Origin: Methanolinea sp.
Lineage (GTDB): Archaea; Halobacteriota; Methanomicrobia; Methanomicrobiales; Methanospirillaceae
Direction: 5' to 3'
DNA length: 33,994 nt
Assembly (NCBI GenBank): GCA_030019395.1
Contig: JASEES010000003.1
Coordinates: 33,103-67,096 of the forward strand
A program made the position numbers and the translations under genes. The notes beneath the pieces are model-generated. The model saw only the letters and a list, made by a program, of their open reading frames with translations. It did not search any database and had not been told where the DNA came from. Below are positions 25,934 through 33,447 of this stretch, one piece after another. How positions within the stretch are numbered: the stretch's first letter is position 1; each line of letters begins with the position of its first letter.

Positions 25934-28048
25934 ATGATGCACCGTTTCCACCCCGCCATCCTCTGTTCCTGCCTTATCCTCGCAGGCGTGCTTGGTGCAG
26001 CATGCCTGAGCATCCCTGCGACAACGGCCCCGGTATCCCCGGAGATCAGGAAGTTCAACTCGACTGCCGAGATAGAACAGTATCTCAGGGATTCGATGGA
26101 AACATCCCGGGATACACTGTATCGCACGATGGTCCCCACCATTGCTGCAACGGCCCCCCTCCCGAAGGAGTCCACCGGGTCAGAGCAGGCATCTGCCATC
26201 CCGGTCCCGTATTCGACCACCGGTTTTTCCGGGGGCCGTGACTACTCGAAGACCAACGTCCAGGTTGCAGCAGTCGACGAGCCTGACATCGTCAAGAACG
26301 ACGACCGGTACATCTACACCATCTCGGGGCAGAACCTCGTGATCATCGATGCGTACCCGGCAGAACGGGCCTCGATCGTGTCCACGACAGAGATTTCCGA
26401 TACACCACGGAACATCTTTGTCAGGGGAGACCGCCTCGTCCTCTTTTCGACGGGAACGGACCGTTTGGATCGCACAACCGGGGAGGATGGGACTGAAGGA
26501 AAGGTCATGCCGATGCCACCCTATTGGCGCTTTCCCTCTTTCGTGACTCATGCCACCATCTACGATATCCGAGACCGGGCAAACCCGGTAGTCCTCAAAG
26601 ACTACTCTGTCGATGGCAATTACCTCGATGCCCGGATGATCGGGTCGCTCGTGTACCTGGTCACCCAGCAGCAGATCAACCCGTACCGCGATGCGCCGGT
26701 GATCGTCCCCGTCCTCCGCGAGGGGACAAGGACGGTCATCCAGCCGGACGTCTGGTACTTCGATAACCCCGAGCCCCAGTACATCTTCACCACGATCACG
26801 TCCCTCGATATCGCGACCGGGAAGGAGAGGGATGCCCAGACGTACCTGCTTGGAACCGGGAACACCCTCTACGTCTCAAAAGACGCACTATACGTGAGCT
26901 ACCCGCGCTACAGCCCCGTGATCTACCGGGCGCCCGGGGATCTCCCGCTCCGGTCCGGTGCTGCCGTTGATTCTTCCGGCAGCTCGTCCGTTATTCCGGC
27001 CGACTTCAACACGCTTCCTGCAGGAGAACGGGAGTCCATCCTCGAAAGTCTCCGGAAGGGCGAAGAGGACGCAGTCCTCCGGCAGGAAGCAGACCAGACC
27101 ACCACCGTCATCCATAAAATCGGCATCGAAAACGGTGCCATCACCTACAGGGCAAAGGGTGAAGTGCCCGGGGCCCTCCACAACCAGTTCTCGATGGACG
27201 AGTACGGCGACAACCTCCGGGTCGCGACAACATCGAGCGTCTCCAGCCGCCGCTTCGGCCAGTATACCTACAACAACGTCTTTGTCCTGGACAGGAACTT
27301 AAAGACGGTGGGCGAACTGACCCGCATCGCCGAACAGGAGACGATCTACGCGACCCGGTTCATCGGGGACAAGCTCTACATGGTCACGTTCAGGCGTATC
27401 GATCCGTTCTTCGTCATCGATCTCTCGGACCCGGAGAAGCCGAGGGTCCTTGGGAAACTCAAAATCCCGGGATACTCCGATTACCTGCACCCCTACGATG
27501 CGACGCATATCATCGGGATAGGCAGGGAAACGGAGACAAACGACTGGGGTGGTGTCTCCACGAGCGGGGTCAAGATTGCCCTCTTCGATGTCTCGGACGT
27601 CGAATCCCCCCGGCTCCTCGACAAGGTGCAGATCGGGGATGCAGGGTCCGACTCGGCCGCTCTCCAGGATCACCATGCCTTCCTCTTTGACAGGGCAAAG
27701 AACCTGCTCGTGATCCCCATCCGGGCCGTCACGGCTGAACCGGTTGGCAGGGATGGCTCTATCTCCCCGCGTCCGCAGGTATGGTACGGTGCATACGTGT
27801 TTGGCCTGAATCCGGAGACCGGTTTTACACTCCGCGGCACTGTCCGGCACGGCAGCAGTGATACCGGTTATTCTTACTACGGGAGCCCGGCATCCGAGGT
27901 GAAGCGGTCCCTGTACATCGACAACGTGCTCTACACCCTGTCTGCAAAACAGGTGAAGGCAAACCCGCTCGATGACCTTGCCACAACACTCGCAACGATT
28001 CCTCTCCCCCCGGCAGGGGATATCTATTACCCGGATGTCATGGAGTGA
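25934..28048 (+). CDS. Secreted beta-propeller domain protein
   Basis: The 704-aa product has an N-terminal signal sequence (hydrophobic to about residue 24, with C-x-x lipoprotein-like GAACLS), then a Thr/Pro-rich linker. From about 95 to the end it follows the archaeal secreted beta-propeller family: NVQVAAVDEPDIVKNDDRYIYTISGQNLVIIDAYP, DTPRNIFVRGDRLVLFS, YDIRDRANPVVLKDYSVDGNY, and later HNQFSMDEYGDNLRVATTSS, FIGDKLYMVTFRRIDPFFVIDLSDP and GWGGVST-type strands. Function is unknown; the fold suggests binding on the cell surface. ATG 25934 and ATG 25937 are both possible, since ggggag lies three and six bases upstream respectively. A T8 run at 28066-28073 follows the stop. Confidence 0.88.
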   Translation: MMHRFHPAILCSCLILAGVLGAACLSIPATTAPVSPEIRKFNSTAEIEQYLRDSMETSRDTLYRTMVPTIAATAPLPKESTGSEQASAIPVPYSTTGFSGGRDYSKTNVQVAAVDEPDIVKNDDRYIYTISGQNLVIIDAYPAERASIVSTTEISDTPRNIFVRGDRLVLFSTGTDRLDRTTGEDGTEGKVMPMPPYWRFPSFVTHATIYDIRDRANPVVLKDYSVDGNYLDARMIGSLVYLVTQQQINPYRDAPVIVPVLREGTRTVIQPDVWYFDNPEPQYIFTTITSLDIATGKERDAQTYLLGTGNTLYVSKDALYVSYPRYSPVIYRAPGDLPLRSGAAVDSSGSSSVIPADFNTLPAGERESILESLRKGEEDAVLRQEADQTTTVIHKIGIENGAITYRAKGEVPGALHNQFSMDEYGDNLRVATTSSVSSRRFGQYTYNNVFVLDRNLKTVGELTRIAEQETIYATRFIGDKLYMVTFRRIDPFFVIDLSDPEKPRVLGKLKIPGYSDYLHPYDATHIIGIGRETETNDWGGVSTSGVKIALFDVSDVESPRLLDKVQIGDAGSDSAALQDHHAFLFDRAKNLLVIPIRAVTAEPVGRDGSISPRPQVWYGAYVFGLNPETGFTLRGTVRHGSSDTGYSYYGSPASEVKRSLYIDNVLYTLSAKQVKANPLDDLATTLATIPLPPAGDIYYPDVME

Positions 28049-28413: not shown

Positions 28414-30627
28414 TTACGTTCTCTCCTGCCTCCCGACGAGCGCGAGGACAGCCGGCATGATAACGGATGCACTGAGCAGGGAGAAAATGACAAGGATGAC
28501 CGTGGACAGTCCGAACCCGGAGAGGATCGGGAACGATGACAGCATGAGGGCGGAGAACCCGGCGGCGGTCACGAGACCTGAGACGACAACGGCTGACCCT
28601 ATCTTCCTGACTGCCTCCTGGATAGCCCTGATCTTGTCGCCGGTCTTCCGCTGCTCCTCGAGGTAGCGCTCCATGACGAGAATGGTGTACTCGGACCCGA
28701 CGCCGATTGTCATCGAACCGAGCACAGCGGTGAGGATGCTGTAGTCCTGGCCGAGTGCTATCATACCCAGCGTGTTCCACCCGATAACGCAGATAATCGG
28801 GACGAGAGGGGTCAGCGCGACGGCCTTCCGGTAAATCAGGAGGAGCAGGACGGAGATCAGGATGAAACCCAGCATTGTCATGCGGTCCTTGTTCTTCACG
28901 ACCTGTTCTGTCAGGATCACGTAAAGGGAAAAATCACCTGTCGGGACGACTTCCGCCCCGGGAGGGGGCTCGAGCCACTTGATTTCCGCGGCCACGTTGT
29001 CCGAGAACGCCCGCTGCTCGTTGATTGTCATCGACCCGATGCTGATGATGACGATCGATGTCGTGGCATCAATCTGGTAGAGACTGCGTTCCTGTGCAGG
29101 TATGGCTGCGAGGACCCGGTCGAGCCCGGCCTGGCTGACAGGGAGAACCCCGGAATTGTACGACCTGACGAGCGAGGCGATGCTCTCGATACGGGTAATC
29201 TTTGGGTATTTATCGGCCAGTTCAGTCCCCAGCCGGTCTATCCACCATATCCCGTCCACGGAGGAGGGATCGATCCCCCGGACGTACAGCGGGAGCGGCG
29301 TGAGCGACCCGCTCACCGACTGGACCTTGTCGGCAACGAGCTGTGCCGGGAGGTCCGGGGGAACCATTGACTTCTGCGATGCATCGACAGGGATCCCGCT
29401 GTCGAGGGCAATGCCCGCCGCGGCTATGACGACCGCGACCAGTACCACCGGTCCGGCGATCTTCACAACCACGGAAACGACTGTCGAGAGCACCCTCTCG
29501 TACGCGGCATTGAGCCGGTACGTAAAACCCCTGCCGGGGGGTTTCGGCTCATAGGAGACCAGGTGGACGATTGCCCCGAATCCCAGAACCGAGGTCAGGT
29601 AACAGCAGGATATCCCTATGATCGACACCGTGGCAAAGGTCTGGATCATGGGGATGGGGGTGATGAACATCGCGGCAAATCCAAGCGATGTGGAGGCGAG
29701 TGCGATCAGGACAGAGGGACCGGTATGCTTCAGGGTCTCTGCGAGTGCAGGAGAGATCTCCTTTTGGCGGCGTTCATCGTCAAAGCGCATGTGGAACTGG
29801 ACGGCATAGTCTATGCCGAGGCCGAGCAGTATGGGGAACGCCGCGATGGCCCCGTCGTTTGCCGGGATGCCGAACGCCCCCATGATCCCGAACGTATAGA
29901 AGAGGCCGAAGATCAGGAGAACGATGGGGAGTATCCAGAACCGGATCTTCGAGTACAGGATGTACATGACGACGAGCATGAAGATGATGCACGCAATGAT
30001 GAGCACGCCGAAATCAGCCATCATGGCGCCCTCGAACTGGAGCGTGTAGGGAGTGTTCCCGGTGATCTCGATCGATACTCCCGGGGGAAGCGTCGCCTGC
30101 CCGACGGTATTCACGACGAAAGGCTCGATGTTCTGGGATGCGTCCGTGGACACTCCCTGCTCGATAAGGACATAGCCAAGCGCTGTCTGCCGGTCAGGCA
30201 CGAACTTTTTCTGGATATCCGGGGGCAGCCGGTCAATGATTGCCCACACTTCGGCGCTCGTGCCGGGGATCGTCCCTCCATGGTACTGTGCAACGATGTC
30301 CGCGACGGAGTGGACGGAATCGACGTGGCTGATGCGGCTCAGCTGCTTTTCAAGGACGAGGAGCTGGTTCAGCAGTACGGGGTCCCCGGGGTCAGGGGTC
30401 TTGATCAGGAGGATGTAGGTGTCCTGCCCGTAGCGGTTGTTATACAGGTCGTAAATGATCCCTGCGGGGGACTGCTTGTCCATGTACTCGTCGGAGAGTG
30501 CCTGGGTGGGGATATGCCCTGCGAAAAAGAGGGAGATTGCGGCAAGAACGAGCATCACGACGAAGATCTCCTTCGGGTGGCGGTTTACGAAGACCGCAAT
30601 CCCCCCAAACACGTCTTCCGTCTTCAT
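28414..30627 (-). CDS. RND-superfamily (MMPL/HAE3-type) exporter
   Basis: The 737-aa product has the two-fold RND layout: helix 1 at about 20-37, a large outer loop to about 205, five helices (about 206-375), then a repeat of helix, outer loop and five helices to the end. The helix-4 region has GLGIDYAVQFHMRFDDE with D273, and the second half has TIGVGSEYTILVMERYLEE with a matching acid, both candidate proton-relay residues. It lacks the long tail of bacterial AcrB-type pumps and is closest to the hydrophobe/HAE3 exporters common in archaea. Likely substrates are lipids or other hydrophobic molecules; none is proved. A TATA attataaatc at about 30669-30678 lies 45 bp before the ATG. It is divergent from two anchored envelope proteins. 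Confidence 0.9.
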   Translation of the reverse strand: MKTEDVFGGIAVFVNRHPKEIFVVMLVLAAISLFFAGHIPTQALSDEYMDKQSPAGIIYDLYNNRYGQDTYILLIKTPDPGDPVLLNQLLVLEKQLSRISHVDSVHSVADIVAQYHGGTIPGTSAEVWAIIDRLPPDIQKKFVPDRQTALGYVLIEQGVSTDASQNIEPFVVNTVGQATLPPGVSIEITGNTPYTLQFEGAMMADFGVLIIACIIFMLVVMYILYSKIRFWILPIVLLIFGLFYTFGIMGAFGIPANDGAIAAFPILLGLGIDYAVQFHMRFDDERRQKEISPALAETLKHTGPSVLIALASTSLGFAAMFITPIPMIQTFATVSIIGISCCYLTSVLGFGAIVHLVSYEPKPPGRGFTYRLNAAYERVLSTVVSVVVKIAGPVVLVAVVIAAAGIALDSGIPVDASQKSMVPPDLPAQLVADKVQSVSGSLTPLPLYVRGIDPSSVDGIWWIDRLGTELADKYPKITRIESIASLVRSYNSGVLPVSQAGLDRVLAAIPAQERSLYQIDATTSIVIISIGSMTINEQRAFSDNVAAEIKWLEPPPGAEVVPTGDFSLYVILTEQVVKNKDRMTMLGFILISVLLLLIYRKAVALTPLVPIICVIGWNTLGMIALGQDYSILTAVLGSMTIGVGSEYTILVMERYLEEQRKTGDKIRAIQEAVRKIGSAVVVSGLVTAAGFSALMLSSFPILSGFGLSTVILVIFSLLSASVIMPAVLALVGRQERT

Positions 30628-30668
30628 GCAGGGACCAACCTTTCCTTACCGTAGAAATGGAGAAATGA

Positions 30669-30678
30669 TTTATAATGA
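30669..30678 (-). promoter_or_regulatory. TATA box of the exporter gene
   Basis: The reverse strand reads attataaatc here, about 45 bp from the ATG at 30627. The predicted leader is about 20 bases. Confidence 0.45.
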
Positions 30679-30790
30679 GGATTGCGATTAATCTCCATCC
30701 GGGACCACATCCCCCAACGGGTTGCGCCATGCTTCGTTACCTTAATCTTTTTTTCAATCTTAACAAAACTGTGAAGGAGACAGATGTCCT

Positions 30791-32092
30791 ATGCGTTGTT
30801 TCTGCCTGCACCGCATTTTATTCATTTTCCTGGTTTTCCTGGCCGCCCTTGCGTTCTGTACCGGTCCGTGCTCGGCGGGGTATAAGTACTACTCGGGAGG
30901 GCCCGAACTGTCCGTTTCTCTTGCCGGAAACGATGAGATGATCCCCGGGACGACTGCAGACCTTCCGCTTGTCATCGAGAACAAGGGGATCCTCACGATG
31001 CAGTTTTATAATGCATATACCCTCGAACCCCAGTACCTCCCGACGACGGCGAAGTTCGCAAGGGTCAGACTCGTGCCCGGTGATGCCCCCGTCAGGGTAA
31101 AATCCGATTCCCAGAACGTGGGTGATATACCGTCCGGGGTCGTTATCCCTGTCCATTTCGTGGTGGAGGTTCCGGAGGATGCAAAGGCCGGCAACTACAC
31201 GATGCAGGCAGTCATCTCCTACAGTTACGTGCCCCAGGTGGAACAGTCAGGCACCGATACCCTCGAATACTCCTTCAGGAACGTCGAGGTCTCGCTGCCT
31301 GTCCCCATCGTGATCAGGAAGGTTGTGGTCCTGTCCGTGGAGGACGTATCTGTCAGCGACCTCCATGCCGGTGGCGAGGGTTACATAACGTTTGTGATCA
31401 GGAACACGGGGCAGGATACAGGGGACAGGACATCCATTTACCTCGTGCCTGAAGGTGCAAGCCCGATCGTGCCGTTCTCGAACGGGGTATACGTGGGGAC
31501 GCTTCCCCCGGGCGGCACCGTGCAGCCCCGTTTCAAGGTTTCCGTCTCGCGTGATGCTGACCCGGCGCAGCCTGCTCCCGTCATGCTCTACGCTGTCTAC
31601 AGGGATTTCGAGGGGAACATGGTCCGTTCGCCCATGGCAAGCGCGGGGGTGTCCTTTTCTGAAAAGGTCAGGTTCGAGGTTACCAGCCCGCCCCCGGTGA
31701 TCCACGCCGGTGAGACGAATACCATGAGCGTGACGTACAGGAACGCCGGCAACTCGACGGTATACAGTGCGCAGGCCCGGATCAGCGTTATCGATCCTTT
31801 CACGAGTGAGGACGACACGGCATACCTTGGTGACCTCAAGCCGGGCGAGTCCGCAACCGCAACGTTTGCCATCAAGACGGGGGCAGATGCCACCATCAAG
31901 ACGTACTCCCTCGACTCGGATGTCAGGTACCTCGATGCTTCCCAGACCTCCTTTACCTCGGACAATATACCCGTCGTGGTTGAGGTACGGGAGGGCGGGT
32001 CCGTCCTGCCCATCGCAATCGTCCTCATCATCGTGGTTGCCGGAGGGGGAGCGTACCTGTGGTACCGGAAGAAATCGGCTGCTGCGAAGTGA
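30791..32092 (+). CDS. Membrane-anchored envelope protein with repeated CARDB/S-layer-like beta domains (first paralogue)
   Basis: The 433-aa product has a signal peptide at 1-28, an outer region and a C-terminal helix at about 408-426 with a KKSAAAK tail inside. The outer part has three or more beta-sandwich repeats with the pattern I-x-N-x-G: LPLVIENKGILTMQ, ITFVIRNTGQDTGD and MSVTYRNAGNSTVYSAQ, followed by LPPGGT/LKPGESATATF turns. These are typical of COG1361/CARDB-type surface proteins of methanogens. There is no enzyme motif. A gaaggag lies about 11 bases before the ATG. It is followed 8 bp later by a related gene and is divergent from the RND exporter, suggesting a shared envelope function. 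Confidence 0.8.
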   Translation: MRCFCLHRILFIFLVFLAALAFCTGPCSAGYKYYSGGPELSVSLAGNDEMIPGTTADLPLVIENKGILTMQFYNAYTLEPQYLPTTAKFARVRLVPGDAPVRVKSDSQNVGDIPSGVVIPVHFVVEVPEDAKAGNYTMQAVISYSYVPQVEQSGTDTLEYSFRNVEVSLPVPIVIRKVVVLSVEDVSVSDLHAGGEGYITFVIRNTGQDTGDRTSIYLVPEGASPIVPFSNGVYVGTLPPGGTVQPRFKVSVSRDADPAQPAPVMLYAVYRDFEGNMVRSPMASAGVSFSEKVRFEVTSPPPVIHAGETNTMSVTYRNAGNSTVYSAQARISVIDPFTSEDDTAYLGDLKPGESATATFAIKTGADATIKTYSLDSDVRYLDASQTSFTSDNIPVVVEVREGGSVLPIAIVLIIVVAGGGAYLWYRKKSAAAK

Positions 32093-32100
32093 GAGAGTCC

Positions 32101-33447
32101 ATGGTCCATCGTTCTGCGGGGAAAGGATCATCCCGCTCCCCTGCCGCCATCTCCGTTCTCATGGGGCTCTTCCTCATCCTCGCCCTCTTGTGCCCCCCGT
32201 TGTCTGCACTGGGGTTCATCTACCTTGATACAGGTGCCCAGCCGGACCTCGTCGCCCATGCGGAAGGCGTTACCGAGTATTACCCCGGCGATGCATTCGC
32301 GATGACGGTTGTCCTGACCAACAAGGGCAGGGACACCGCCGTCCAGATTGCCCCGCGGCTTTCTCCCGGGGCATACGATCCGAGCACTGCCATCGGTGTT
32401 ACTGTCTGGCCGCAGGCGGGAGACGCTCCCGTGACTATCAAAAGCCTCCCGGTTATGGCCGGGGATATCGGGTCCTGGGGCAAGGCGCGTCTGACAGTCA
32501 GTGGCACCGTGTTCCAGAACGCGACTCCCGGTTTCCACACGATTCCCCTTGTCGTGAAGTACAGATATGTCTATGCCATCCCCATGGTCGGCGATCAATT
32601 CAGCACCATCGACCTGCTGTACCGCGATAAGGAGCAGGTGCTTCCTGTTACCTTTCGGGTCAGGGGGGATGTCAGGCCGGCGATCAGGAACGTCAGCTGC
32701 GAGAACATGGTGCCCGGCTCGCAGGGGTACCTGACCGCCCTGGTCGAAAACACCGGGTATGCGACAGGGAATTCCGTTATGCTCCGGGTCGTCCCGGCCG
32801 ACAACACGACGTTCCGGATGGTGGACGACAGCGTATTCATCGGGAAGTTTGCGCCCGGAGACGTGGTGCCCCTGCGGGTGCGGATAGCTGTCAGGGAGCA
32901 TACCGCTGCCGGGTCATACCCCGCCGTCCTGATTGGCGAATACAAAGACGATGCGGGTATGATCCGGGCTACCCGTGAAGTCCCCCTCGGGATCGAGGTC
33001 TTGCGGGGAGCGGTCTTCGAGGTGGTGAACCAGGACGTGGTGATTACTCCCGGCCGGGACAGGGCAATTACCGTCGGGTTCAGGAATGCCGGGGATACCC
33101 CTGCCTACGATGCCCGGGCCCGGATCATCGGGAGCCACGTCCTCGTTCCATCGGTCGACTCGGTGGATCTCGGGACTATCGGTCCCGGTGAGACCGTGAC
33201 AGCCCGGTTTGTCATCTCTGCTGATGCGGCAATCCCCGGGAAACGCTATGTCATTGATTCCGAGATCAAGTACCGCGACGAGCTGGGCGCCCTCATGCTC
33301 TCGGACCCGATGAGCTTTGGGATCGGGATCCGGGAACCGGAGGGTCTCGATGCGATCACCTCGAACCCGGTTGCCCTCATCGTTATTGCAGGAGCGATCG
33401 TGCTCATCGCGGATGCGGTATGGAGACTCCGGAGGAGGAAGAGATAG
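32101..33447 (+). CDS. Membrane-anchored envelope protein with CARDB/S-layer-like domains (second paralogue)
   Basis: The 448-aa product has the same plan as the upstream gene: an N-terminal hydrophobic segment at about 18-38, outer beta repeats with AMTVVLTNKGRDTAVQ, LTALVENTGYATGNS and ITVGFRNAGDTPAYDAR, the IGPGETVTARF turn, and a C-terminal helix ending in RLRRRKR. The two proteins appear to be diverged copies of one ancestor. ATG 32101 is preferred because it follows the previous stop by 8 bp and opens with a basic segment before the helix; in-frame starts further up overlap the first gene. It is likely cotranscribed with it. A nested stem and T6 run follow the stop. Confidence 0.8.
   Translation: MVHRSAGKGSSRSPAAISVLMGLFLILALLCPPLSALGFIYLDTGAQPDLVAHAEGVTEYYPGDAFAMTVVLTNKGRDTAVQIAPRLSPGAYDPSTAIGVTVWPQAGDAPVTIKSLPVMAGDIGSWGKARLTVSGTVFQNATPGFHTIPLVVKYRYVYAIPMVGDQFSTIDLLYRDKEQVLPVTFRVRGDVRPAIRNVSCENMVPGSQGYLTALVENTGYATGNSVMLRVVPADNTTFRMVDDSVFIGKFAPGDVVPLRVRIAVREHTAAGSYPAVLIGEYKDDAGMIRATREVPLGIEVLRGAVFEVVNQDVVITPGRDRAITVGFRNAGDTPAYDARARIIGSHVLVPSVDSVDLGTIGPGETVTARFVISADAAIPGKRYVIDSEIKYRDELGALMLSDPMSFGIGIREPEGLDAITSNPVALIVIAGAIVLIADAVWRLRRRKR

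Follow-up and report, generated by a model that had tools for sequence, protein, structure and literature searches.

A HAE3-type RND exporter in a methanogen is linked to two paralogous, membrane-anchored COG1361-type proteins

The stretch of DNA analysed here (the window; 33,994 nucleotides of Methanolinea sp., G000:C45:33103-67096 in a methanogen assembly of 1.8 Mb) encodes an HAE3-type RND exporter and, next to it, two paralogous surface proteins, CA and CB. Conserved linkage, matching presence and absence, and linkage that is kept through rearrangement give good support to a functional partnership of exporter and CA/CB. By analogy with solved MmpS-MmpL complexes, we propose that the locus encodes an HAE3/MmpL-like exporter, driven by protons, together with a cognate pair of single-pass adaptors that face outward, a reading to which we give a probability of roughly 55%. 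The original prediction, made from the sequence, had envisaged both a partnership and an undescribed system. The first part stands, but the second does not, because a pair of the same kind has already been described for HVO_A0467/HVO_A0466 (PMC11349517).

The exporter gene (28414..30627, minus strand) encodes a protein of 737 amino acids with two MMPL halves. The protein scores 440.9 bits against TIGR00921 (HAE3), for which the curated cut-off is 351.9, and Pfam MMPL is matched over two stretches (E 2e-45). Its AlphaFold2 model (pLDDT 86.8, pTM 0.83) consists of two halves and contains approximately 12 long membrane helices, as counted from the DSSP string. D273 (in the motif GIDY) and E646 (in GSEY) are the relay acids, one per half. 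Both are invariant in 28 of 28 homologues from Methanomicrobiales, and in a wider set of homologues the two positions are near-invariant, with D/E exchange occurring. Conservation and the predicted fold together establish that the protein is an RND pump built of two halves and equipped with a D/E relay, in line with the original claim of two halves that each carry an acidic relay residue. In score, architecture and relay the exporter resembles HAE3 (TC 2.A.6.7) in general, but within HAE3 it belongs to a Methanomicrobiales sub-clade that is tied to a COG1361 pair, whereas a further HAE3 clade of this order is not.

CA (30791..32092, plus strand) is separated from the divergent exporter gene by an intergenic region of 163 bp (30628..30790). 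Reading by eye, we noted a candidate TATA-like element, ATTATAAAT, on the minus strand of this region near 30668-30676, and a candidate GGAG approximately 11 bases ahead of the CA start. CB (32101..33447, plus strand) follows; its open reading frame can be extended to a GTG at 32059, but the ATG at 32101, 8 bp past the CA stop, is the likelier start. The outer coordinates originally proposed for the locus, 28414 and 33447, agree exactly with the open reading frames.

A search with CA finds CB at E 4e-42, and the two proteins are therefore paralogues. NPCBM_assoc and CARDB are matched above the Pfam cut-offs in both, and N-x-G motifs recur at positions 64, 205 and 318 of CA and 74, 217 and 329 of CB. 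CA, a COG1361-type protein of 433 amino acids, is modelled by AlphaFold2 (pLDDT 87.8) with a signal helix (residues 2-24), three beta-sandwich regions of the Ig-like, NEW3/CARDB kind (31-175, 181-297 and 303-400) and a C-terminal membrane helix (406-432). The same plan of signal peptide, repeated Ig-like domains and C-terminal transmembrane segment is supported for CB by its sequence and Pfam matches. These results bear out the earlier description of two adjacent paralogues built alike. Because each protein combines a signal peptide with a C-terminal membrane helix, the beta domains should face the outside of the cell. Sequons occur in both proteins and mark at most candidate sites of surface glycosylation. 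Sequence and fold searches offer little further guidance: the CA/CB profile A3 matches zero PDB chains at E 0.01, and a structure search with the partner returned only generic Ig-like proteins with low TM-scores (cilia proteins, integrins and complement/macroglobulin), which we judged uninformative as a clue to function. The same genome encodes further COG1361 proteins of this plan at G000:C47:44876-46123 and G000:C24:7915-9189, neither beside an exporter; the former is transcribed divergently from the gene of a TrmB-like regulator and clusters in the COG1361 tree with partners of M1b pumps. Large repeated-CARDB proteins are encoded elsewhere, at G000:C50:51193-56067 (open frames of 1469 and 597 amino acids).

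In a tree of HAE3 proteins the window's exporter groups with other Methanomicrobiales loci, including those of Methanogenium marinum and Methanomicrobium mobile. At most loci of this clade the exporter is divergent from a CA-CB pair, with the two partners on the opposite strand, and convergent versions are found at L062/L172, L063, L064, L173 and L174. The divergent orientation is thus local, with relatives showing a convergent or single-strand arrangement. In the COG1361 tree the first partner genes and the second partner genes fall into distinct orthologous branches, both of which track the branching of the exporters. Orthologues of the exporter (at least 48% identity) and of CA (at least 372 bits; the next match scores 355) are present in the identical nine of 61 relative genomes. 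The sole unlinked case among the nine, G019, has its CA-CB pair intact on a different contig (CA 65% and CB 63% identical). G036, where neither a close exporter nor a close CA is present, has a CB-like fragment with two in-frame stops at G036:C388:8467-9186; this resembles joint loss of the trio, although one draft genome makes it no more than suggestive. When the flanking genes of the clade loci were compared, only the exporter, CA and CB were conserved, and no further gene, whether for biosynthesis or for regulation, recurred across these loci to hint at a substrate. One flanking gene of the window, at 25934-28048, encodes a PF09826 beta-propeller protein that adjoins the locus; a relative with 37% identity lies beside an HAE3 gene in L041, and the gene is not conserved across the window's clade.

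For a wider view, we took 60 stretches that surround HAE3 hits in relatives, with a further 40 drawn from across the phylum, and searched them with a profile made from CA/CB homologues. Among genes encoding at least 200 amino acids, those of COG1361 type make up 83 of 346 within 2 kb of an HAE3 gene and 3 of 435 at greater distances (odds ratio 45; Fisher p 2e-28, which overstates independence because the sampled loci are related). The original prediction had proposed counting how often HAE3 exporters sit beside COG1361/CARDB-type genes: in the phylum sample a partner of this type lies no more than 2 kb from 64 of 105 exporters, and in a named set that overlaps with this sample the count is 50 of 80. 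The linkage is far beyond chance, and the pairing is not peculiar to this one genome, since the same neighbours recur in relatives and across the phylum. Distances between exporters correlate with those between their partners (Pearson 0.83 for 26 Methanomicrobiales pairs), a value that partly reflects shared species history. Gene order and partner size vary: at f9 loci the partner is found upstream of the pump and on its strand, as is a single partner at many f1 and f6 loci; f8 loci usually have two partners downstream, several of them overlapping the pump stop codon by four bases. Partner lengths range from approximately 350 to 640 amino acids across the sampled loci, and no fusion of pump and partner was found in the named set of 80 exporters. 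We conclude that the gene partnership is old and widespread in archaea.

These data also bear on whether the genes are mere neighbours that stay adjacent through common regulation or chance, without any physical partnership. Because the genes are divergent in the window, a shared regulatory region could explain their linkage here. Elsewhere, however, adjacency persists through divergent, convergent and same-strand orders with the partner on the 5' or the 3' side, the exporter and CA co-occur in the same nine genomes, and the CA-CB pair is retained in G019 even though it is unlinked. This explanation is already disfavoured, and we regard it as highly improbable.

The pairing does not extend to all HAE3 pumps. 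In M2, a second large HAE3 clade of Methanomicrobiales (35 rows), most pumps have no COG1361 neighbour, and the partner is therefore dispensable for some HAE3 pumps. Instead, the pumps of M2, one of which is the second HAE3 protein of the window's genome (on C9), often have a TrmB-like regulator and a small protein as neighbours, and a universal rule linking HAE3 to COG1361 is accordingly rejected. At M2 loci such as L045, L047, L055 and L056 the divergent TrmB-like regulator is conserved, and a cytosolic protein of approximately 140 amino acids overlaps the pump start. Two loci branching just outside the window's clade (L068 and L069) likewise have no partner. In L082 and L085, from Methanolinea-related genomes, the genes of a TrmB-like regulator and an M2-type exporter lie back to back with an operon of an M1b exporter and a COG1361 gene; a single partner gene is thereby flanked by two different HAE3 pumps.

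The closest described system is found in Haloferax volcanii, where the RND permease HVO_A0467 is induced 44-fold in iron starvation and forms an operon with HVO_A0466, an RND-T-associated, glycosylated protein of Ig-fold repeats with a C-terminal transmembrane segment (PMC11349517). The same 2024 study reported the pairing of RND and Ig-fold/COG1361 genes in 21 haloarchaeal genomes (PMC11349517). We judged homology of the partner to HVO_A0466 through a homologue in Haloferax alexandrinus, whose locus has the same arrangement, including the diagnostic one-base overlap. Its partner scores 223-241 bits against the CA/CB profile A3 (E of approximately 1e-65 or better) and its pump 407 bits against the HAE3 profile, which makes the locus in the window a methanogen example of the described kind, with two partners in place of one. 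Loci in Haloarcula and Halorubrum agree with the Haloferax pairing. In both systems an RND gene adjoins that of a secreted Ig-fold-repeat protein with a C-terminal transmembrane segment, but they differ in detail. HVO_A0466 lies on the same strand as its pump gene and overlaps it from upstream, whereas the genes of the methanogen are divergent. HVO_A0466 is a single partner with four Ig domains, whereas the window has two diverged partners, with three domains in the CA model; length varies within the family, and we do not take domain number as defining.

The haloarchaeal homologues raise the possibility that CA and CB are structural or anchoring proteins, linked to the S-layer, that fix the exporter beneath it and are unneeded for transport. 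Homologues in Haloarcula and Haloferax carry the name 'COG1361 S-layer family protein', and the Haloferax member is a glycoprotein with a predicted fibre-like shape (PMC11349517). The name is an annotation only, however, and the pairing is specific to exporter clades, tracking one pump clade across genomes, which is not what a general structural role predicts. We consider such a role improbable.

Our preferred reading, in which CA and CB are adaptors, draws on the folds nearest to the exporter. A structure search with the exporter model found MmpL5/MmpS5, MmpL4, MmpL3 and HpnN as its nearest folds in the PDB, with TM-scores of approximately 0.72-0.78 for MmpL3, MmpL4 and MmpL5 (including the MmpS5/MmpL5 and MmpS4-MmpL4 complexes). 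MmpS5 has one transmembrane segment and an 8-strand beta domain, and touches MmpL5 in both the membrane and the outer regions of a 3:3 complex (PMC12346298); MmpS4 and MmpL4 form a hexameric complex (PMC12803245). Like CA and CB, MmpS4 and MmpS5 are single-pass proteins whose genes adjoin that of the pump and whose beta structure faces outward. The likeness ends there: MmpS has an N-terminal transmembrane segment and one beta domain, whereas CA has a C-terminal anchor and three, and the long coiled-coil hairpin of MmpL5 is missing from the window exporter model. Profile A3 gives no match to MmpS in the PDB, where MmpS complexes are present. Pumps of the AcrAB-TolC type also combine an RND pump with a dedicated extracytoplasmic partner, but theirs is an HlyD-type adaptor, and a Pfam scan of the genes neighbouring the window exporter found no HlyD/MFP adaptor domain. 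Archaea of this group also lack an outer membrane.

Since what CA/CB and MmpS have in common is the outline (anchored, beta-structured, outward-facing), and not sequence, domain number or the position of the transmembrane segment, CA and CB may work like MmpS without being MmpS. An MmpS-like role, by analogy and not by homology, appears to be the best explanation of the data. We hypothesize that CA and CB would bind the outer domain of the exporter and its membrane edge, that they would stabilise its working oligomer, and that they would extend the path of the substrate across the space beneath the S-layer, in the manner of MmpS5 with MmpL5. Against an adaptor role, the PDB search found no sequence relation of CA/CB to any solved adaptor, the M2 pumps are mostly partnerless, and some COG1361 genes, two of them in this genome, lie away from exporters. 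More tentatively still, we speculate that COG1361/NEW3 proteins may be RND adaptors across archaea, which would have reached the MmpS solution independently, and that the two-copy version, present here and in f8 (probably Methanosarcinaceae), might be an obligate mixed assembly around one pump.

It is plausible that, once exported, the substrate would be taken over or directed by CA and CB on the outside of the cell. Alternatively, they could act apart from the pump itself, as substrate acceptors or chaperones that pass an exported lipid or amphiphile to the envelope. The linkage evidence applies equally to such proteins, partners with three beta domains are larger than a minimal adaptor requires, and the two diverged copies, which arose separately in f8 and in the window's clade, could mean different cargo or acceptor sites. 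Neither Pfam nor the PDB sequence search, however, places CA or CB in a known lipid- or ligand-binding family, and the fold matches are generic Ig-like domains; we hold this alternative to be unlikely, though worth weighing. The exported compound is probably a small molecule of hydrophobic or amphiphilic character, and a lipid in particular has no direct support. A siderophore is the sole published idea that we found for the substrate of an archaeal member, based on induction and docking, and deletion of HVO_A0467 gave no clear growth phenotype under iron scarcity (PMC11349517).

A dedicated, anchored partner thus follows HAE3 pumps across the sampled archaeal phylum, in varied gene orders and including two-copy versions, and the 2024 haloarchaeal finding is thereby widened to methanogens. 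The pairing makes it testable whether RND export in monoderm archaea with an S-layer uses adaptors, as it does in diderm bacteria, and the genetically tractable Haloferax carries the same kind of gene pair.
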